DNA from: Proteocatella sphenisci DSM 23131 | Lineage (GTDB): Bacteria; Bacillota; Clostridia; Peptostreptococcales; Filifactoraceae | Length of the DNA: 47,896 nucleotides | Assembly: GCF_000423525.1 (NCBI RefSeq) | Contig: NZ_AUID01000021.1 | Span: 1 to 47,896, forward strand | Direction: 5' to 3' | The notes under the pieces: generated by a model | Database searches by the model: none | What the model saw: the letters and a program-made list of their open reading frames with translations, nothing else | Told to the model about the DNA's origin: nothing | Part shown: piece after piece, positions 14,425-38,067 of the stretch | Numbering within the stretch: the first letter of the stretch is position 1 | How the letters are laid out: the number at the start of each line of letters is the position of its first letter | Made by a program: the position numbers and the translations under genes

Positions 14425-14575
14425 ATATCTGCTTGTACTTGTTCTGGGTAAGTTTTACATTATAAGTACGGTTGCATGGCAGGTGACTCTTTGGATAATA
14501 CTTGTGTGCCAGGGGTATCTTGCGATAGGTCCGCTGTTTGCCATCCCAAGGACTGCGACGGTTCTTTTTTACTCA
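14425..14575 (+). pseudogene. Internal remnant of a brnQ branched-chain amino-acid transporter
   Basis: Translating the plus strand gives about 45 residues ending in YLAIGPLFAIPRTATVLF, which carries the GPLFA-PRTATV signature of the BrnQ/LIVCS family (sodium- or proton-coupled Leu/Ile/Val uptake). There is no start, the preceding helices are missing, and it is fused at about 14424 to the antisense permease remnant. After the signature the reading frame runs directly into the 3' end of the btuF gene. It is a gene fragment, not a working protein. Confidence 0.75.
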
Positions 14576-15678
14576 AGTGATTCCAAGGGTCCAAATCCAC
14601 CGAACGTGTCTTTCATCTGCTGGTAGAATGACTTTCCCAGAAGCGTCTCATATATCTCGTCTGCTTTTTCCTCTGGATCCAGGTCTGCAAATGCTTCCGG
14701 ATATACGGTCTTGCCTGTGAAGTATGCGTTTACCATGGCTGTATCTATGTTTGTAGTAAGGAAGTTGTATGGCATCTGCCCGTATACTTTGTGATTCCTG
14801 AATGCACTGAGCGATTCATAAAACTCTTTGTTGTTCATGTAGTCTTCTTTTACGTGAACAAGTCCATTCAGATCCAGGAAGATAAACTCGGGGTCCCATA
14901 CGAAAAGCTGTTCTTTGTCTATCATAAGGCTTCCTGTTTTTCCGGTTTCATCTGCTACGTTGTCTACATTGAGCGAGTCAAATATCACAAAGCCTCCCCT
15001 TGTGCTTTCTATGCCTTTGGCTCCCTTGCTTCCCAGTGCTCCTACATATGCCTGTGCCCTATCTTGTGTCTCTATGCTCTCAGTCCGCTCTTTGAGGTCC
15101 TTTGCGCACGACTGCATGTATGAAACTACTGTTTCTGCTTTTTCCTGCGTTCCCATTACTTCTCCGATTATATTTAGCGACTGGTATACCTGCTCGTCAA
15201 AAAGCCCGTTTGCTCCGTATCCTATTGCTATTACAGGTATTCCCAGCGTGCTTTGCAGCTCGTCTGGATTTTCATATGTCGTAAATATCACGTCCGGTGA
15301 TACTCCAAGGATCTTTTCAGGGTCGTTTCCGCCATTTGGTCCACCCTGTCCGATCACAGGAAGAGATCTGAAGATCTCCTGATTTATCTGTGTGTATGGT
15401 CTTCCCGGTGCGTCTTCATGCTCTACGGCCTCTACACCTGCAAGTTTTTCAAGATCAGCTGAGTATGCGTAGAGTCTCAGTGCGCCTACGCCTGTAACTG
15501 CGACTTTTGATACTGAACCGAGAATTTCTACTTCACGTCCCAATATGTCAGCGATAAGCTTTTTTTCCGTTGAATCTGGCTGTGATTCTGCTGAACCTGC
15601 GCTTCCTGTACAGCCTGTAAGCGTCATGAGGGACGCTAATAATGTAATGATGAGTAAGCAGTTTATGATTTTTTTCAT
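14569..15678 (-). CDS. btuF: Periplasmic-type binding lipoprotein of cobalamin ABC importer
   Basis: Solute-binding lipoprotein of 369 residues. Residues 1-23 are a signal peptide with lipobox LTGC. The mature part has the two-lobe class III fold signs of the BtuF/FepB family: VAVTGVGALRLYAY in lobe 1, PDVIFTTYENPDELQ before the rigid helix, and the C-terminal lobe with NHKVYGQMPYNFL. It captures the corrinoid outside the membrane and passes it to BtuC. It is the last gene of the riboswitch operon, 8 bp after btuD. The family also handles siderophores and heme; cobalamin is chosen because of the riboswitch 2.3 kb upstream. The 3' end abuts the brnQ remnant. Confidence 0.82.
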   Translation of the reverse strand: MKKIINCLLIITLLASLMTLTGCTGSAGSAESQPDSTEKKLIADILGREVEILGSVSKVAVTGVGALRLYAYSADLEKLAGVEAVEHEDAPGRPYTQINQEIFRSLPVIGQGGPNGGNDPEKILGVSPDVIFTTYENPDELQSTLGIPVIAIGYGANGLFDEQVYQSLNIIGEVMGTQEKAETVVSYMQSCAKDLKERTESIETQDRAQAYVGALGSKGAKGIESTRGGFVIFDSLNVDNVADETGKTGSLMIDKEQLFVWDPEFIFLDLNGLVHVKEDYMNNKEFYESLSAFRNHKVYGQMPYNFLTTNIDTAMVNAYFTGKTVYPEAFADLDPEEKADEIYETLLGKSFYQQMKDTFGGFGPLESLE

Positions 15679-15686
15679 TTTTCCTC

Positions 15687-16439
15687 CTATTTAGGTACTA
15701 CCACTGTATGATTTTCACATTTTATTATGTTCACCGGCACTGAGTATATTTCTTCTATATTCGAGGCCGTTATTATCTCTTTTCCGCCGGCTGCAAAAAC
15801 TCCCTTGTCCTTCATGAGTATGAATCTGTCTGCATAGCGCAGGGCGAGGTTTATGTCGTGCATTGCCACTATGGCTGTAAGATGATTTTCTCTTACTGCT
15901 TTTTTGATTACGTCAAGTACATCGAGCTGATTCCTCAGGTCGAGATGATTCGTTGGCTCGTCCATAAGTATGACTTTGGGATTCTGTGCTATGGCTCTCG
16001 CTATCATTACCATCTGCAGTTCGCCGCCGCTCAGCTCGTCTATGTACCTATTTTCATATCTTTTCAGCCCCAGGCTTTCTATTGCTCTGTGTGCTATCTC
16101 TATGTCTTCTCTTGTGGCATCCCATTTTATATAGGGTTTTCTTCCAAGAAGTATGGCATTGAATACTTTTATCCGGTTGCTGACTTTCCTCTGTTCTACA
16201 TAGCTCATCTTTTGGGCAAGCTCTTTGCGGGAATGGTCTCTGGTGCATCTGTTTTCTATCAGCACGGTCCCTTTTTCCGGTTCGAGGATCAGATTTATGC
16301 ATTTCAAAAGAGTGGTCTTGCCTGTCCCATTTGTTCCAAGCACTGCAACGAACTCTTCCGGTGCCGCCCTGAAGCAGATGTCTTCGAGTACGGGATTTCC
16401 TGGATATGAAAATTCTACTCCTTCGATACTTAATCTCAT
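15687..16439 (-). CDS. btuD: ATP-binding subunit of cobalamin-type ABC importer
   Basis: FecE/BtuD-type ATPase of 250 residues. Walker A is GTNGTGKTTLLK (residues 34-45), the signature is LSGGELQMVMIARAI, Walker B is VILMDEPTNHLD, and the switch His is in VAMHDINLAL. It dimerises under BtuC and powers import. Its ATG overlaps the btuC stop by 4 bp (ATGA), implying translational coupling. Confidence 0.88.
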   Translation of the reverse strand: MRLSIEGVEFSYPGNPVLEDICFRAAPEEFVAVLGTNGTGKTTLLKCINLILEPEKGTVLIENRCTRDHSRKELAQKMSYVEQRKVSNRIKVFNAILLGRKPYIKWDATREDIEIAHRAIESLGLKRYENRYIDELSGGELQMVMIARAIAQNPKVILMDEPTNHLDLRNQLDVLDVIKKAVRENHLTAIVAMHDINLALRYADRFILMKDKGVFAAGGKEIITASNIEEIYSVPVNIIKCENHTVVVPK

Positions 16440-17488
16440 TTCTGTTTTGCTCCTTTCATAAGAAGATACAGGAACAGCGGTGCCCCCAGAAAGGAGGTTA
16501 TGGTCCCTACGGGAAGCACTATAGGTGCTATGATTGTCCTTGCTGCCGTGTCTGATACGAGAAGTATGAGGCTTCCTGTCAGAACTGCTGATGGTATAAG
16601 CAGCCTGTGATCCTCTCCTGTCAGCCTTCTCATTATCTGAGGCGCTATAAGTCCTACAAATCCTATTATTCCCACGAATGAGACAGTGACTGCTGTTATG
16701 AGCGATGCCAGGAACATCCCTGTAAATCTCAGATTTTCTACGTTTACCCCGAGGCTCTTTGCAGTTGCTTCTCCGCTGTCAAGGGCATTATAGTTCCATC
16801 TGTTGAACAGAAAGTAAAGTGTTCCGGCTGCTACTGTAATACTCATTATCCCCAGTTCTTTCCAGGTTATCCTCCCCAGGTCTCCAAATGTCCAAAACAC
16901 CATGGATGCTATCTGGACGTCGTCGGCAAAGTACTGTAGAAGGGTTGATCCTGCAGTAAAAAGAGAGCCTATTGCAACTCCTGCAAGTACTACTGATTCC
17001 GGGGTAAATCCTCTGTTTCTGGCCAGGGCCAGTATCCATGTCATAGCTATCATAGAGAATGAAAATGCAAATATGCTCACCATATACGGGTTCTCGATGA
17101 ATATGGGATTTGCTGAGGAGCTGTTGTATCTCCCTTCTCCTGCCAGAACAATGGAGAGGTTGGCTCCAAATGCGGCTGCATTTGATATACCCAGCGTGGA
17201 TGGTGATGCTATAGGATTTTTGAGGCTTGTCTGCATTATGCATCCTGAGACGGCAAGTCCTGCTCCTGCAACGATACCTCCCAGGATTCGAGGCAGCCTT
17301 ATCTTCCATATTACGATATCTGCAAATTTATCTCCCTGAAGGATCAGGGTTTTTAATACGCTGCCAATATGTGCCTGGGCCGAACCTGTGTTTAGTGCGA
17401 TATATGCACAAACCATGATTGCCAGAGCCAGCGCCGAGAGTATATATCTGTTTCTCTGTGTCTGCTGTTCATAGGCGTTCTTTATCAT
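16436..17488 (-). CDS. btuC: Permease subunit of cobalamin-type ABC importer (FecCD family)
   Basis: Membrane permease of 350 residues with about nine to ten hydrophobic segments, the normal size of the BtuC/FecCD family. The motifs IRLPRILGGIVAGAGLAVSG near residue 65 and GFVGLIAPQIMRRLTG near residue 270 (the loop contacting the ATPase) are conserved. It forms the translocation path for the substrate. It overlaps trmO upstream and btuD downstream by 4 bp each, so trmO, btuC and btuD form a tightly coupled unit. Siderophore transport cannot be excluded from the protein alone; the cobalamin riboswitch decides the assignment. Confidence 0.87.
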   Translation of the reverse strand: MIKNAYEQQTQRNRYILSALALAIMVCAYIALNTGSAQAHIGSVLKTLILQGDKFADIVIWKIRLPRILGGIVAGAGLAVSGCIMQTSLKNPIASPSTLGISNAAAFGANLSIVLAGEGRYNSSSANPIFIENPYMVSIFAFSFSMIAMTWILALARNRGFTPESVVLAGVAIGSLFTAGSTLLQYFADDVQIASMVFWTFGDLGRITWKELGIMSITVAAGTLYFLFNRWNYNALDSGEATAKSLGVNVENLRFTGMFLASLITAVTVSFVGIIGFVGLIAPQIMRRLTGEDHRLLIPSAVLTGSLILLVSDTAARTIIAPIVLPVGTITSFLGAPLFLYLLMKGAKQK

Positions 17489-17949: not shown

Positions 17950-18171
17950 CTTAAAGTTACAGACAGATTTATCCGCCTTTGCTTTACACAGATCCCGTCT
18001 CTCGCAGGATTGCGTGTTGTTTATAAGCAGGTCTACCGGCTCAAGCTTCATCATTGTTTCAACCTTCCCGGTTTCCCAGTGGCATACTGAAACAACTCTT
18101 CTTTTACGGTGGCGGGACCGCGTGGGCATTTAACCCAACTTCCCTTTTAAGCCCTTTGTAATACATAGGGC
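17929..18171 (-). ncRNA. Cobalamin (B12) riboswitch with terminator expression platform
   Basis: On the minus strand the conserved core appears in order: a GCCC...GGGC stem (from 18171), TTAAAAGGGAA, the GCGGTCCCGCCACCGT block, GCCACTG, GGGAAGG and the B12 box GAGCCGGTAGACCTGC (ending at 18027). These match the Rfam RF00174 pattern as I know it. The aptamer is followed at 17949-17929 by a 9-bp hairpin (CATTTCTGT/ACAGGGATG) with a T-rich run that reaches the trmO ribosome site, so binding of adenosylcobalamin or a related corrinoid should stop transcription before trmO-btuCDF. Confidence 0.92.
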
Positions 18172-18228
18172 ACTTATATACAGAGATATAATCTCAAACA
18201 CTATTCAATTTTCATAATTTTCGTTTTT

Positions 18229-32726: not shown

Positions 32727-33971
32727 TTAATATACCACATCTGAGAGGATTCCACTCATGTGAGCGATAAAAACTCCGTAGTTGGTAACTGGTATTTTCT
32801 GGTCTTTGCACCTTTGTATCCTTGATATTACATTCTTTCTATTGAGCATGCAGCCCCCGCAATGAATTACTAAATCAAAGCTTGAGACGTCTGCTGGTAT
32901 GTCATTTCCACTCTTCCATGTGAATTTTATATTCTCTCCAAAGCGTTTTTTGAGCATTGCTGGAATTTTTATTCTTCCTATATCTCCATCAAGGGGATTG
33001 TGACTGCAGGCCTCGAGTATGAGTATACTGCTTTTTTCACTGAGAGAGTCTATGGCCGCGGCCCCTCTTACAAACTCGTCTATGTCGCCCTTGTACCTTG
33101 CCATAAGCACCGAAAACGATGTAAGCAGGGTCTCTTTGGGGCATCTGTCCTTTACATATTTAAATACCTGAGAGTCGGTTATTATAAGCTTTGGTGGATT
33201 TTTGTAAAGCATGAGGCTTTCTTCGAGCTTGTCTGTAGTAACTATTGATACTATGGCCTTGTGGTCCAGAAGGTCTCTTATAGTCTGTATCTGAGGAAGT
33301 ATAAGCCTTCCTTTTGGAGCCTGTATGTCTTGCGGCGCTACGAGCAGCACATGATCTCCCTTGTTTATAAGGTGGGCTGTTATGGAGTCGAGTTCATACT
33401 CCGAAGGCGCAAGTTCTATGAGTTTTTGCCTGAATTTTTCGATGTTGGTATTTTCTCTTGCACTTATATATACTCTCTCAAGGCCTTCAAGCTCCTGGGG
33501 AAGATTAATGGCAGAGCGCTCATTCGGTTTCGCCTCATGGACGCCTGACCCCAGTGGCAAAGTCATAACAGTGTCCAGTTTATTTATCGTAAGCAGTACT
33601 GGTATTTTTTTTTCGTCCAGAAACGCCAGCCACTCAAGTTCTTTTGAAAAATCGCTCTGACCTGCTACTACTGCCATTACTGCGAGATCTGTCTTTGAGA
33701 TGACTTCTCTGGTCTTTTCAACCCTCATAAGTCCGAGCTCGCCCTCATCATCAAAGCCTGCTGTGTCAATAAGTACACATGGTCCAAGGGGATGTATCTC
33801 TATTGGCCTGTATACTGGGTCTGTGGTCGTTCCAGCCACATCGCTCACGAGCGCTGTATTTTGATTTGAGATGGCATTTATGAGTGATGATTTTCCGCTG
33901 TTTCGCCTTCCAAATATGGCTATGTGAAGCCTTAGGGCATTTGGGGTAGCGTTTAGTTCGTTTACTGCCAT
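32727..33971 (-). CDS. hydF: [FeFe]-hydrogenase maturation GTPase HydF
   Basis: Scaffold protein of 414 residues on which the 2Fe subcluster is assembled and then passed to apo-HydA. The N-terminal GTPase domain has FGRRNSGKSSLIN (P-loop), DVAGTTTDP (switch I), IDTAGFDD and NKLD; a dimerisation domain follows. The C-terminal domain carries the [4Fe-4S] ligands in ACSHNP (Cys and His) and HCGGC. It is the last maturation gene, 34 bp after hydG. All residues known to be required are present. Confidence 0.95.
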   Translation of the reverse strand: MAVNELNATPNALRLHIAIFGRRNSGKSSLINAISNQNTALVSDVAGTTTDPVYRPIEIHPLGPCVLIDTAGFDDEGELGLMRVEKTREVISKTDLAVMAVVAGQSDFSKELEWLAFLDEKKIPVLLTINKLDTVMTLPLGSGVHEAKPNERSAINLPQELEGLERVYISARENTNIEKFRQKLIELAPSEYELDSITAHLINKGDHVLLVAPQDIQAPKGRLILPQIQTIRDLLDHKAIVSIVTTDKLEESLMLYKNPPKLIITDSQVFKYVKDRCPKETLLTSFSVLMARYKGDIDEFVRGAAAIDSLSEKSSILILEACSHNPLDGDIGRIKIPAMLKKRFGENIKFTWKSGNDIPADVSSFDLVIHCGGCMLNRKNVISRIQRCKDQKIPVTNYGVFIAHMSGILSDVVY

Positions 33972-34005: not shown

Positions 34006-35427
34006 CTATACTCTAAAGTCTCTTTCTCCGTTTTTTATCCTCTCGAGCCACTGGGCTGTTTTTTGCTTCATCTCCGGATTTGGTATCTTTTGAGCCTGGT
34101 CTCTTATAACTTTTTCTCCAATTTCCTTTGTCTCTGGCGAAGCGTAGTCCATAAGGTATTCCTGAAGTGTAAGCAGGGCATTGGGCTGACACACGTTTCC
34201 TATCTGGCCTACTTTTGCAAGGGCCATGAATCTGTCACCTGTTCTGCCCTCTCTGTAACATGCTGTGCAAAAACTTGGAATGTAGCCGTTTTTTGCGAGA
34301 TCAAGAGTTATTTCGTCAAGCGTTCTGTGGTCTTCTACATCAAACTGTGATGTGTTTGCCTTTTCCAGTTTTGCCATCTCATCATATCCGCCTACGCCTG
34401 TGCATGAGCCTCCGCTAAGCTGTGATACTCCAAGTTTCAAAAGGTCCGCTCTGCTTTCCATGGTCTCTCTTGTGGAGATTATAATGCCTGTATATGGGAC
34501 TGCCAGCCTGAATATGGCTACCAGATTATAAAATTTTTCGTCTGTGATTCCAGTGTATTGCGACATCTCCACGTCACTTGCTGCTCTGATTCTTGGAAAG
34601 CTCATTGTGTGAGGTCCTACTCCAAAGGTATCTTCGAGATGTTTTACGTGAAGCATCATGCCTACTGCATCATAGTGGTAGTCGTCATGAAGCCCCAGAA
34701 GTACGCCTATTCCAACATCATCAAGTCCAGCCTCCATGGCTCTGTCCATAGCCTCTGTATGGTATGCGTAGTTATGCTTTGGACCTTTTGGATGCATGTA
34801 TCCATAAGTATCTTTGTTGTATGTTTCCTGAAAGAGGATATAGGTTCCGATTCCCGCTTCCTTGAGCTTTAAATAGTCTTCCACGCTTGCCGCTGCTATG
34901 TTTACATTTACTCTTCTTATTTCTCCGTTCTTATGTTTTACAGAGTATATTGTCTTTATGCTTTCAAGAAGGTATTCCAGTGAGCTGTTTTCGGGGTCCT
35001 CTCCAAGCTCTAACGCAAGTCTTTTGTGTCCCATATCCTGAAGGGCGATTACTTCTTTTTTGATTTCTTCCTGAGTAAGTTTTTTTCTTGTCATCTCTTT
35101 GTTGGAATGGTGGTATCCACAGTATCTGCACTCATTTATGCAGTAGTTTGACAGATAAAGAGGGGCAAACATAACTATTCGGTTTCCATATATATGTTCT
35201 TTTATCTTTGCTGCAGTCTCATGGATTTTTGCAATTGTTTCTTTGTCCTCTGATTCAAGAAGCACTGCTACTTCTGTATGGTCTAATCCTTCAAATTTTG
35301 AAGCTTTTTTTAGTATTGAATCAATAAGCTCGGCGTTGTCTTTGTTTTGCTTTGCATATTCGATGGTTTTCAGTATCTCATCGTGATTTATAAATTCTTC
35401 TGCTATTTTTGATTTTGAATTATACAT
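34006..35427 (-). CDS. hydG: [FeFe]-hydrogenase maturation radical SAM tyrosine lyase HydG
   Basis: Enzyme of 473 residues that cleaves L-tyrosine to p-cresol and dehydroglycine to give the CO and CN ligands bound to iron. The radical SAM motif is CINECRYCGYHH (near residue 100); the C-terminal auxiliary cluster motif is CTACYREGRTGDRFM, which holds the dangler iron site. Length is as usual. It follows hydE by 13 bp. The related thiazole enzyme ThiH lacks the C-terminal cysteine motif, so the assignment is clear. Confidence 0.96.
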   Translation of the reverse strand: MYNSKSKIAEEFINHDEILKTIEYAKQNKDNAELIDSILKKASKFEGLDHTEVAVLLESEDKETIAKIHETAAKIKEHIYGNRIVMFAPLYLSNYCINECRYCGYHHSNKEMTRKKLTQEEIKKEVIALQDMGHKRLALELGEDPENSSLEYLLESIKTIYSVKHKNGEIRRVNVNIAAASVEDYLKLKEAGIGTYILFQETYNKDTYGYMHPKGPKHNYAYHTEAMDRAMEAGLDDVGIGVLLGLHDDYHYDAVGMMLHVKHLEDTFGVGPHTMSFPRIRAASDVEMSQYTGITDEKFYNLVAIFRLAVPYTGIIISTRETMESRADLLKLGVSQLSGGSCTGVGGYDEMAKLEKANTSQFDVEDHRTLDEITLDLAKNGYIPSFCTACYREGRTGDRFMALAKVGQIGNVCQPNALLTLQEYLMDYASPETKEIGEKVIRDQAQKIPNPEMKQKTAQWLERIKNGERDFRV

Positions 35428-35440
35428 ATTTTCTCCTCTT

Positions 35441-36463
35441 CTAAACGGGAATTCTATCTAACGACTCTATATATTTTTCAAGTTCTGTTCTTGCGGTTTT
35501 TATGTCTTTTTCTTCACCAAAATTTGTAGGATAAATTTCGTATTTGGTTCTTTCGCTCCAGGGAGTCACTTTTCGCATTATTACATTGGCTCCGTTTTTG
35601 AATATAAGATCAAGCTGAGAACTGTCAATTACCCCGAGTGAAGTCGTTGCCGGAAGGTTGGCATCTGGAAGCAGAAGCCTTGCTATTGCTACGGTCCTTC
35701 TTGTAAGCAGTGGATCTCCACTTTTTTGACCTCTGAGCGGAGTATCTTCATGGGATATGAATGGTCCTATTCCTGCCATCTCGCAGCCAATTTCTCTTAT
35801 GAGAAGAAGGTCTCCTGCAATCATTTGAAGGGTCTGCCCTGGTATTCCTATCATGAACCCTCCTCCAGTCTCATAGCCCAGGGATTTGAGATTTTTCTGA
35901 GTGTCTACTCGGTCTTTTAGAAGATCACCTTTGTGGATCTCTTTATAAAAATCTTCGTCTGAGGTTTCATGCTTGAGTAAAAATCTGTCCGCCCCTGCTT
36001 TTCTCATGGCGCTGAGCTCTTGGTATGGGCGCTCTCCTATGCTCAGGGTTATTGATATGTCTGATTGCGCTTTTATTTTCCTTACTATCTTGCATATCTT
36101 TTCTTCTGTATAAAAGAGATCTTCTCCTGATTGAAGCACTATTGTTCTGTAGCCTGCCTGAGCAGCCTCAAGAGTCGTCTTTACTATGTCTTCTTCAGAT
36201 AGTCTGTATCTGTTTACATTTGGGTTTTCGGCGCTCAGACCGCAGTATGTACACCTGCATCTGCAGTAGTTTGAGAATTCGAGTATAGCTCTTATATCTA
36301 CTTTTTTGCCTTTTCTTTCAAGGGTCATTTCATTCGCTTTTTGGAAAAGATACTCGTCTATGCCGCCCTCAAGAAGGGTTATGAGTTCTTCAGGCTCTGG
36401 TAAGTATCCTTGGGACAAGCTGTCTATAAGGTATGATTTTTCTTTGGTGGCATTTCTATCCAT
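35441..36463 (-). CDS. hydE: [FeFe]-hydrogenase maturation radical SAM protein HydE
   Basis: Radical SAM enzyme of 340 residues acting in assembly of the dithiolate-bridged di-iron precursor. The cluster motif is CRCRCTYCGLSAEN, i.e. C-x3-C-x2-C, near residue 60; GGGFMIGIPGQT and GPFISHEDTPLRG are typical HydE segments. The start at 36463 has GGGAGG 5 bp upstream and is preferred over a Met six codons earlier. It lies between the TM1266-like gene and hydG in a tight operon. Confidence 0.94.
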   Translation of the reverse strand: MDRNATKEKSYLIDSLSQGYLPEPEELITLLEGGIDEYLFQKANEMTLERKGKKVDIRAILEFSNYCRCRCTYCGLSAENPNVNRYRLSEEDIVKTTLEAAQAGYRTIVLQSGEDLFYTEEKICKIVRKIKAQSDISITLSIGERPYQELSAMRKAGADRFLLKHETSDEDFYKEIHKGDLLKDRVDTQKNLKSLGYETGGGFMIGIPGQTLQMIAGDLLLIREIGCEMAGIGPFISHEDTPLRGQKSGDPLLTRRTVAIARLLLPDANLPATTSLGVIDSSQLDLIFKNGANVIMRKVTPWSERTKYEIYPTNFGEEKDIKTARTELEKYIESLDRIPV

Positions 36464-36485
36464 ATTACCTCCCTTCTGCACTATT

Positions 36486-36740
36486 TTATTTTTCTCCTGT
36501 TTTAGATACTGTTACCTTTACATTTATTCCTTTTATCATTCCAAGTTTTCCAGAAAGGCTGCTGATAACATTTTGCGGGGCATCTACAACTACTGATATG
36601 ATCCCTATTCCTCTTTGCCTGTAGGGTATGCCCATACGTCCTACTATGTAGTTTGAAAATTCGTGAAGCAGGTCATTTGTTGGGGCGCTGCTCTCAGAGT
36701 CTTCGACTATTATGCTAACTATGGCTATTTTGGTATCCAT
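36486..36740 (-). CDS. TM1266-like putative iron-only hydrogenase system regulator
   Basis: Small protein of 84 residues with an ACT/NikR-C-like ferredoxin fold pattern (AIVSIIVEDSES, YIVGRMGIPYRQRGIGIISVVVDAP, LSGKLGMIKGINVKVTVSK). This family (TIGR03959, hyd_TM1266) occurs almost only beside [FeFe]-hydrogenase maturation genes and is named a regulator from context; it has no DNA-binding domain. It is the first gene of the hydE-hydG-hydF operon, 22 bp before hydE, and follows a long structured leader. GGAGG precedes the ATG at 36740; an in-frame extension upstream is not supported. Confidence 0.87.
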   Translation of the reverse strand: MDTKIAIVSIIVEDSESSAPTNDLLHEFSNYIVGRMGIPYRQRGIGIISVVVDAPQNVISSLSGKLGMIKGINVKVTVSKTGEK

Positions 36741-36785: not shown

Positions 36786-37013
36786 AATAAAAAACACACC
36801 ATTTCTGATGTGTTAAAAGGCAGATTTATAATCTCTGTAAGTTAACTTTATCCCAGGTTTTTACCCCTTGGGCCATCAGAAAAATTTCACACTATTTAAT
36901 TTTTACCATAAATCATATTTGTATTACCGAAATTACAGCTGATCCATCAGGGTCAGGTACTCCTTTACCTTCAGGATCAGCATTTTTCAGTGTAAAAATA
37001 ATAATTTTGGATT
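36786..37013 (-). ncRNA. Candidate attenuator/riboswitch leader of the hydrogenase-maturation operon
   Basis: The 300-bp gap before the TM1266-like gene holds a leader of about 230 nt up to the terminator. GCTGATCC and GGATCAGC (36981-36974 with 36945-36938) close a stem containing an inner GGTA/TACC hairpin. Further on, TTTCTGATG (36882-36874) can pair with CATCAGAAA (36810-36802), which forms part of the terminator stem and loop, so the two structures exclude each other. That is the layout of an antitermination switch. I compared it by eye with TPP, FMN, glycine, c-di-GMP, Moco, THF, preQ1 and fluoride classes and found no match. The ligand or factor is unknown. Confidence 0.6.
36793..36814 (-). 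terminator. Intrinsic terminator in the hyd leader
   Basis: AACACATC and GGTGTGTT form an 8-bp stem with a 6-nt loop followed by six T, 50 bp before the TM1266-like ATG. It must be bypassed for hydEGF expression. Confidence 0.75.
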
Positions 37014-37019
37014 TATACC

Positions 37020-37048
37020 ATTCTATATCATTGTCAAAGTTTTGTCAA
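37020..37048 (-). promoter_or_regulatory. Promoter of the hydrogenase-maturation operon
   Basis: On the minus strand TTGACA (37048-37043), 17 bp and TAGAAT (37025-37020) form a strong sigma-A promoter. The -35 element overlaps the stop codon of the upstream FMN-oxidase gene, so the hyd operon is probably its own transcription unit. Confidence 0.78.
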
Positions 37049-38067
37049 TGGGTTTTTCTCACATGCTTTTCATTTATTGAAGCAAGGTCTTTGCAGCCAG
37101 TCATCAGCATGGCATTTTTAAGCTCCGATCCAATCTGATTGTAAAGCAGCTCCACGCCTTCTTCTGCGCCGCCGTATACTGCCGTAACAAATGGTCTGGC
37201 CATAAGCACTGCGTCTGCGCCAAGAGCTATAGCCTTGAATACATCGAGTCCGGTTCTTATTCCGCCGTCTATAAATATCTTTACTTTTCCTTTTACTGCC
37301 TGCACTATCTCGGGAAGCACGCTCAGCGTTGACGGTGTATCATCAAGCACTCTTCCTCCGTGATTTGATACGATTATTGCATATGCGCCAGCTTCTGCCG
37401 CTTTGAGGGCTGCTTCTGCTGTCATTATTCCCTTTACTATAAATGGAAGCTCTGTTGAAGATATTATCTGTCTAAGCACTTCTTCAGATACCGGATATAC
37501 AGGTTTTCCCTGTACTGCAAGTATTGCAAGGCCTGCCGCATCAACATCCATTGCTACCGCGAAAGAACCTGCTGCTTCGGCAGTTCTTATTTTTTCAATC
37601 ACTTCATCTTTGCTCCACGGCTTGATTGTTGGGATTCCGTGTCCTCCGCATGCCTTGATGGCATCTGCCGTACCGTCAAATACTGATGCTACAACTCCAT
37701 CCCCTGTAAAGCCTATGCTTCCTGCATTTTTGCTTCCTTTTATTATAATCTCTGAATATTTAAGATCATCGTAAAGATCGCTGTAGTGAAGCTGCACTGC
37801 GCCTACCGGTGCTGCAAATACCGGAAGGTCGAATTTTTTTCCAAAAAGCTCTATGGATATGTCCGGATCTACTACATCATGCAGAGTATCCATGTTTAGT
37901 GATACCGCCTTGAAGGCCTGATAATTTCTGATAAATCCGATTCCGCTTGCTTTTCCTCCAGGTCCTGGAATAACGCCCTTACATGCTATACCGTTACACT
38001 GCGGACATACCTTGCAGTGTGGTCCTATATTTTTTTTTGCGTTTGCAATAACTTCTTGATAGTTCAT
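37045..38067 (-). CDS. FMN-dependent alpha-hydroxy-acid oxidase/dehydrogenase-like protein
   Basis: TIM-barrel flavoprotein of 340 residues related to lactate oxidase and glycolate oxidase. The catalytic His lies in IIVSNHGGRVLDDTPS, and FMN-phosphate binding is seen in FIDGGIRTGLDVFKAIALGADAV. The N-terminus carries four cysteines (HCKVCPQCNGIACKG), a feature of clostridial members that suggests a metal or Fe-S site and a redox partner other than O2. The substrate is not evident; lactate or another 2-hydroxy acid is likely. GAGGT precedes the ATG. It lies just upstream of the hyd operon, but that operon has its own promoter. Confidence 0.8.
   Translation of the reverse strand: MNYQEVIANAKKNIGPHCKVCPQCNGIACKGVIPGPGGKASGIGFIRNYQAFKAVSLNMDTLHDVVDPDISIELFGKKFDLPVFAAPVGAVQLHYSDLYDDLKYSEIIIKGSKNAGSIGFTGDGVVASVFDGTADAIKACGGHGIPTIKPWSKDEVIEKIRTAEAAGSFAVAMDVDAAGLAILAVQGKPVYPVSEEVLRQIISSTELPFIVKGIMTAEAALKAAEAGAYAIIVSNHGGRVLDDTPSTLSVLPEIVQAVKGKVKIFIDGGIRTGLDVFKAIALGADAVLMARPFVTAVYGGAEEGVELLYNQIGSELKNAMLMTGCKDLASINEKHVRKTH

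Follow-up and report, generated by a model that had tools for sequence, protein, structure and literature searches.

Is the RNA in front of a set of hydrogenase-maturation genes a regulatory switch and, if so, of which kind and in answer to what? The question is raised by a locus of Proteocatella sphenisci DSM 23131, in the window (the whole stretch of DNA that was analysed, 47,896 nucleotides). Here a 270-nt leader on the minus strand (37048 to 36741) precedes the genes TM1266, hydE, hydG and hydF, with a gene for an FMN-dependent dehydrogenase on its 5' side. An initial annotation had described its layout as fitting a riboswitch or a protein-dependent antiterminator. The general part of that description stood: this is a switch-like attenuation leader, with two exclusive folds and no Rfam class.

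The end of the dehydrogenase gene (FMN_dh, 37045-38067, minus strand; PF01070, E 1.3e-71) overlaps the -35 region of the promoter, TTGACA-17-TAGAAT (37048-37020, minus strand). It had been annotated as strong, and indeed it has 11 of 12 consensus matches. It is also kept in a congener (locus L008, genome G010). A promoter scan was overall not above chance (3 sites, vs 3.1 in shuffles), so the support for this promoter is its own score and its conservation in the congener. The first gene (36486-36740, minus strand) belongs to the TM1266 family, a putative iron-only hydrogenase system regulator (TIGR03959) with a NikR-sensor fold in its model, and has GGAGG 5 nt 5' of its ATG (36740). It is followed on the same strand by hydE (35441-36481; TIGR03956, 310 bits, cut-off 255), hydG (34006-35427; TIGR03955, 772 bits, cut-off 312) and hydF (32727-33971; HydF_dimer, HydF_tetramer).

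An intrinsic terminator, expected about 50 bp before the first gene, is present 48 nt 5' of the ATG at 36740: AACACATCA-GAAA-TGGTGTGTT forms a 9-bp stem (36814-36793) with a T run at 36794-36789 (36789-36814 with its U run, minus strand; hairpin -9.6 kcal/mol). The alternative pairing said to break it is there too, as nine perfect pairs on the minus strand between TTTCTGATG (36882-36874) and CATCAGAAA (36810-36802). Of 1000 dinucleotide-shuffled versions of the leader, 0.7% contain an equally long complement to the terminator arm and 1.5% an equally stable duplex with it. From the pairing and the comparison with L008 we assign the antiterminator a 5' half, UUUCUGAUG (36874-36882, minus strand), and a 3' half, CAUCAGAAA (36802-36810, minus strand), which doubles as the terminator 5' arm and loop. 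The terminator and its exclusive antiterminator are features of riboswitches. A further stretch, CUGAUG (36950-36945), in the 3' strand of the hairpin described next, could by direct reading pair with CAUCAG of the terminator, but UUUCUGAUG is the longest partner. Two more helices belong to this part of the leader: helix A, CCC-A-AGG-GGUAAAAA-CCU-GGG (36852-36872, minus strand; five pairs the same in L008, one with a one-sided change), and helix B, GUUAA/UUAAC (36812-36846, minus strand; three the same, one compensatory, one one-sided), the second arm of the antiterminated junction. The computed energies are -55.3 kcal/mol for the antiterminated fold vs -54.9 for the terminated one, a difference of 0.4.

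The closed stem of the initial annotation, GCTGATCC/GGATCAGC, is located at 36981-36974 / 36945-36938 on the minus strand. This stem, P2 (GCUGAUCC/GGAUCAGC, 36938-36981, minus strand), is the middle of a long hairpin. Outside it lies P1, a 7-bp outer stem ACUGAAA/UUUCGGU (36926-36991, minus strand); inside it, 3-bp stems with symmetric purine-rich internal loops between them. A descriptor described below matches a core here, UCC[UGA]AGG[UAA]AGG-AGUA-CCU[GAC]CCU[GAU]GGA (36943-36976, minus strand), which resembles the hairpin (H2) that precedes TM1266 in other Clostridia. As a whole the leader has a more stable fold than its shuffles (z -3.1).

In the congener the leader, 71% identical, likewise stands in front of TM1266 and hydE. 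In P1 six pairs are the same and one is compensatory (A-U to G-C); in P2 six are the same, one is compensatory (A-U to U-A) and one is broken; the inner AGG/CCU stems of H2 are invariant. When all 41 pairs of the antiterminated fold are compared, 34 are the same, three are changed on both sides, two are changed on one side and two are broken. Of the three helices that had been put forward for covariation, only the closed stem shows it between these two leaders, with its one compensatory pair next to the broken one; in the terminator two pairs are changed on one side, and one pair of the antiterminator is broken. We infer that terminator and antiterminator cannot covary freely, because they share a strand. 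L008 retains the terminator and eight of the nine antiterminator pairs. There the antiterminator pairing stands out less from shuffles, of which 3.4% do as well by length and 13.7% by energy, and the terminated fold is preferred, at -69.5 vs -67.9 for the antiterminated one.

The gaps between the two leaders are 1, 2, 3 and 14 nt long, which argues for an RNA and not a protein. One rival reading is attenuation by a leader peptide, in which translation of a short ORF would control the fold. The hairpin does contain an ATG-started ORF of 16 codons, but no Shine-Dalgarno sequence is seen before it, its stop is not kept in L008, it has no run of regulatory codons, and changes fall on all codon positions. 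We rejected the leader peptide on these points and regard it as hardly credible.

Another rival reading is a fixed terminator with a chance complement and no regulation at all. It would agree with the terminator scan, which taken alone is at chance (1 found vs about 1.1 expected in the 1.1 kb scanned), and with the energy of the complement in L008, which is not rare. The conservation in L008, the rarity of so long a complement in shuffles of the window leader and the stability of the leader as a whole argue against it, as do the leaders with terminator and hairpin that precede TM1266 in many other genomes. We consider it very improbable, and the window leader is very probably a transcription attenuator of TM1266-hydE-hydG-hydF. 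The nascent RNA would first form the long hairpin (P1/P2/H2). Then there would be a choice: either the junction is closed by UUUCUGAU/AUCAGAAA, giving the antiterminated form with the genes on, or the 9-bp terminator forms and the genes are off. The direction of this switch in the window leader is our inference.

The leader belongs to no family of Rfam 15 (best match E 0.31, 20 bits vs a cut-off of 79), and we reject the known Rfam classes for it since none reaches the gathering score; the claim that it matches no known class is upheld to this extent. In the whole window the only family at gathering score is a cobalamin riboswitch (18009-18192, minus strand, 100 bits). The genes in a row after this riboswitch on the same strand (ORFs 14569-17488) are by our own reading a FecCD-like permease, an ATPase and a binding protein. 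The leader has one copy in its genome, and a mobile repeat was rejected for that reason. When R1, a model built for leaders of the window type, was run on 393 genomes of the order with Infernal's stricter filters, the two congeners were all that it matched. Four short DNA matches (83-96%) in other members of the family were dropped, being AT-rich sequence 3' of the terminator.

TM1266 is present in 95 of 148 related genomes, and the regions upstream of 90 out of 100 TM1266 places in the order were analysed. Many have a terminator 20-90 nt before TM1266 and, before the terminator, a recurring pair of hairpins. Cores were listed in 39 upstreams and 35 were taken, leaving out the distant L114, L119 and L121 and a stray match in L124. 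Alignment A3 holds 27 of the 35 leaders (seven were without a clear first hairpin and one had a long linker). In A3, 98.2% of the cells are paired, double changes occur in 8 of 19 pairs, and the computed covariation is 0.239, vs at most 0.082 for slid structures. At its base H2, the second hairpin of the pair, joins CU or CC to GG. Above this come a short variable stem and an AGR/YCU stem, the latter flanked by A and GA. Ten more distant hairpins (alignment A5, from 17 distant cores, of which three aligned out of register were dropped and four were unused) share this plan; their internal loops are of 3 nt and their middle stem covaries. They are 100% paired with a covariation of 0.286, vs at most 0.083 for slid structures; by the number of further pair types they do not stand out from shuffles (279/500).

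A descriptor of H2 matches 42 of the 90 upstreams in the order, vs 0-2 of 90 in ten shuffled sets (seven matches in 10 x 90, a chance rate of about 0.8% of shuffled leaders) and 0 of 90 on the opposite strand; it was drawn after seeing the window and the order sequences, and a few of the 42 matches (L070, L108) look like chance. For a held-out set we took 70 of the better-scoring TM1266 places among the matches listed, outside the order but in the class, and dropped six short loci. Ten of the remaining 64 upstreams match, vs two matches in 20 shuffled sets and none on the opposite strand; one of the 64, L213, had already matched R2, a covariance model trained on TM1266 upstreams. In type B, a sister form, the top stem is GGG/CCC; this form is found in 4 of 90 order and 9 of 64 class upstreams, with none in 20 shuffled sets of each. 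Either form occurs in 46 of 90 and 18 of 64 TM1266 upstreams; neither was found in the other 44 of the order and 46 of the class. The upstream region of L216 has both forms. By eye L046 and L047 seem to have two copies each, putatively tandem binding sites.

The initial annotation had suggested collecting TM1266-hydE leaders and examining them for covariation and Rfam families. For the wider class this turned out as hoped: 27 leaders covary, and on 39 TM1266 loci no Rfam 15 family reaches the gathering score in the leader, with weak matches below cut-off overlapping a few of them. For the window leader, a place in this covarying class is probable and not provable. Accepted Rfam matches in the 39 loci lie outside the leaders: 5S rRNA in L054 and TwoAYGGAY in L051. 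The TwoAYGGAY RNA (L051:200-355, plus strand; 44.1 vs a gathering score of 43) is on the side away from the TM1266 leader. In the upstreams of L081, L090 and L241, palindromes like GTTAA..TTAAC are seen near the presumed transcription start; they resemble Rex operators.

The 5' arm and loop of the terminator can pair with the AAAGG strand of H2 and what follows it in 29 leaders that have a terminator (L078 and L099, where the script found no terminator, are left out of this set). The mean pairing energy of the leader strand is -9.7 kcal/mol with its own terminator, -8.7 with swapped terminators and -6.9 for a shuffled strand. Own and swapped terminators differ with a permutation p of 0.0015 (n = 29), although the real mean is equalled by 18% of the shuffled antiterminator strands. 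The same AAAGG closes H2, so that the terminator is set free when H2 is stable. In the class the base of H2 would thus be mutually exclusive with an antiterminator pairing, AAAGGUAAGAGGGU to the terminator arm and loop. Whatever stabilises H2 would turn the genes off, so that an effector-bound RNA presumably means off.

Does the window leader belong to this class? It lies upstream of TM1266, on the same strand and before a terminator. Both it and L008 have the core, that is a CC/GG base, a 3-bp stem, an AGR/YCU stem followed by GA, and purine internal loops, although the descriptor was drawn with these two leaders in view. A significant covariance-model score was not obtained: R2 gives the window leader 9.4 bits in the wrong register and L008 at most 2.4 bits. 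A model trained without the window and L008, R3, has its best match within the 401-nt leader in the right register (5.8 bits, E 0.26); over the whole window a match elsewhere scores higher, at 12.7 bits, and over the whole genome the best match is on another contig (E 0.68). Also, the antiterminator of the window leader is shifted to a different strand (UUUCUGAU), unlike in the class, which counts against membership.

These points, together with R1 finding two congeners only, would be accounted for by an attenuator specific to the genus, with a merely coincidental likeness of the hairpin; such an attenuator would be compatible with either kind of effector discussed below. Set against it are the low rate at which the descriptor matches shuffled leaders, the position of the match before the same gene and upstream of the terminator, and the register of the best R3 match in the leader. 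Further, within the family of the window organism there is a descriptor match before TM1266 in G006 and a weak R3 match there in G001 (E 0.15). A genus-specific origin is unlikely on this evidence. The window leader would rather be a rewired member of the TM1266-associated leader class of Clostridia, and we regard its membership as probable. Probably, then, its RNA is part of an undescribed family of RNA switches that stands before the same small regulator gene in many Clostridia.

What does the RNA of this class go with? R2 has 55 matches in the order, and the context of 14 outside known TM1266 loci was examined (the weak matches in G011 and G111 excepted). Away from TM1266, R2 matches lie before hydE-hydG-hydF (G143, G208), before hydG (G208, G212, G095) and at an ABC transporter operon (G100, G090) whose binding protein passes the SsuA-family cut-off. 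In G208 and G212 TM1266 itself lies between the ATPase and binding-protein genes of an SsuA-type transporter, and in G208 it is at the far end of one of the two RNA-led rows, the one in which hydE follows the RNA. The TM1266 gene is on another contig than the RNA in G212 and G095, is a divergent neighbour in G143, and stands behind its own copy of the RNA in G090 and G100. In two draft genomes with no HydF match (G043, G072), TM1266 with the hairpin precedes a transporter whose binding proteins are more distant (43 and 50 bits, below the SsuA-family cut-off).

The model also matches 10 of 20 HydE loci tried (of 36) at E < 0.001, on the hydE strand. In 391 genomes of the class it has five matches; the four with examined context precede TM1266 and the fifth (G012) is in the order set. 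Named carriers of the RNA include Clostridium frigidicarnis, C. tetanomorphum, C. rectalis, Fervidicella metallireducens and Christensenella hongkongensis. Three R2 matches (L171, L178, L179; E 3.6e-4, 0.008, 0.009) were put down to chance, having no hyd, TM1266 or SsuA-type transporter context.

Some loci extend the surroundings of TM1266. It is found inside or beside an SsuA-type ABC operon at L195:659-2742, L196:171-2208, L190 and L191 (two draft genomes without a HydF match). With a transporter as its neighbour where HydF is not matched, TM1266 should perhaps not be counted strictly among the hydrogenase genes. At L192:5265-5792 (minus strand, G664), TM1266 with the RNA is followed by the S component of an ECF transporter (PF12822) instead of hydE.

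When the 148 genomes searched for both are counted, TM1266 is present in 41 of 41 with a clear R2 match. This count sets aside G011 and G111 (E above 0.008); with them it is 42 of 43, since G111, a weak match (E 0.0096), lacks TM1266. In the genomes that have HydF, the RNA occurs in 40 of 92 with TM1266 vs 0 of 22 without it (Fisher 2e-5). The RNA tracks TM1266 more than the maturases. As TM1266 upstreams were what R2 was trained on, part of this association is built in; its independent part is small. A regulator gene wherever the RNA occurs is what a TM1266-dependent attenuator would have.

There are two candidates for what stabilises the RNA. The first is the TM1266 protein, acting on the RNA in response to its own ligand. 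The second is a metabolite or an ion, bound directly by the leader as a riboswitch, with TM1266 merely a regulated gene; the ligand could be an H-cluster precursor, iron, or the substrate of the SsuA-type transporter. Conserved hairpins, a terminator, an antiterminator and a mixed regulon of maturases and an ABC transporter are as expected of a riboswitch, and the RNA precedes hydG (G212, G095, G208:C2) and transporter operons (G090, G100) with no adjoining TM1266 in the stretches examined. What speaks against a riboswitch is that TM1266 is found in every genome with a clear match, which is in part built in. Further, the conserved core consists of one small hairpin whose internal loops are purines, in our judgement simple for an aptamer, and no ligand can be named. 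Direct ligand binding, the riboswitch half of the initial annotation, is a possible reading, held with some doubt; the RNA is linked to TM1266 and, in some genomes, to an SsuA-type transporter as much as to the maturases.

The TM1266 protein has 84 residues, and comparing its structural model with known structures gives 2nzc first and then NikR sensor domains. This fold and the co-occurrence make us rank TM1266 slightly above a free ligand, and we name it tentatively as the effector. In alignment A6 the TM1266 proteins seem to form two sets, ending ..SGKLG..Y.. and ..TGKLG..SALTK, with that of the window nearer the first. Our fullest explanation, an attenuator that is a class member and has TM1266 as effector, is likewise put forward with less than even confidence. 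Still more guardedly, TM1266, as a NikR-type sensor with no DNA-binding half, could read widespread attenuator RNAs of Clostridia and coordinate H-cluster assembly with an SsuA-type transporter, the window leader being a rewired member. For the leaders that precede TM1266 in general, the best reading is a new class of attenuators controlled by TM1266 or by a ligand.

A list by Weinberg et al. 2017 reportedly holds 224 candidate RNAs; that the motif is absent from this list is judged from Rfam 15 alone. Among the papers listed by the literature searches, none is about such an RNA. In this literature TM1266 is named just as a putative regulator, and no cis-RNA control of hydE, hydG and hydF, which serve [FeFe]-hydrogenase active-site assembly, is described; within that literature such control would be new, as the initial annotation had supposed. 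The main text of the RNA discovery and review papers PMC6429828, PMC2864571, PMC8632094, PMC11109978, PMC8040213 and PMC11477304 has no hyd terms, and the riboswitch passages of PMC3543383 deal with the molybdenum cofactor and cobalamin rather than with hyd genes. An RNA that covaries in front of TM1266 across many Clostridia provides this protein with a testable target, and points to the transporter as a possible partner of the H-cluster assembly pathway. What it promises is a riboswitch ligand that would be new or, alternatively, a new kind of sensor that binds RNA.

How does this compare with known systems? In the Rex regulon of Clostridium thermocellum, too, the TM1266 homologue is a target according to site prediction, and hydG according to DAP-seq. 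Control there is at initiation, by a DNA-binding protein, and leader RNA goes unmentioned in the passages on these targets (PMC8457756). Riboswitches that terminate transcription share with our class the 5' leader, the exclusive terminator and antiterminator, the conserved hairpins and the defined gene set. They differ in that our leader has no Rfam 15 family and that the main type is two hairpins with no complex junction. In the protein-controlled attenuators L10(L12)4-rplJL leader and TRAP-trp, an RNA-binding protein likewise brings about attenuation in an operon leader, L10 acting on its own operon; in contrast, TM1266 has a NikR-type sensor fold and its binding to RNA is our proposal. With NikR itself the likeness is in the predicted structure: the TM1266 model aligns with the C-terminal sensor domain at a TM of up to 0.83. 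The difference is that TM1266 is that sensor domain alone, in 84 residues, without the ribbon-helix-helix part with which NikR binds DNA.
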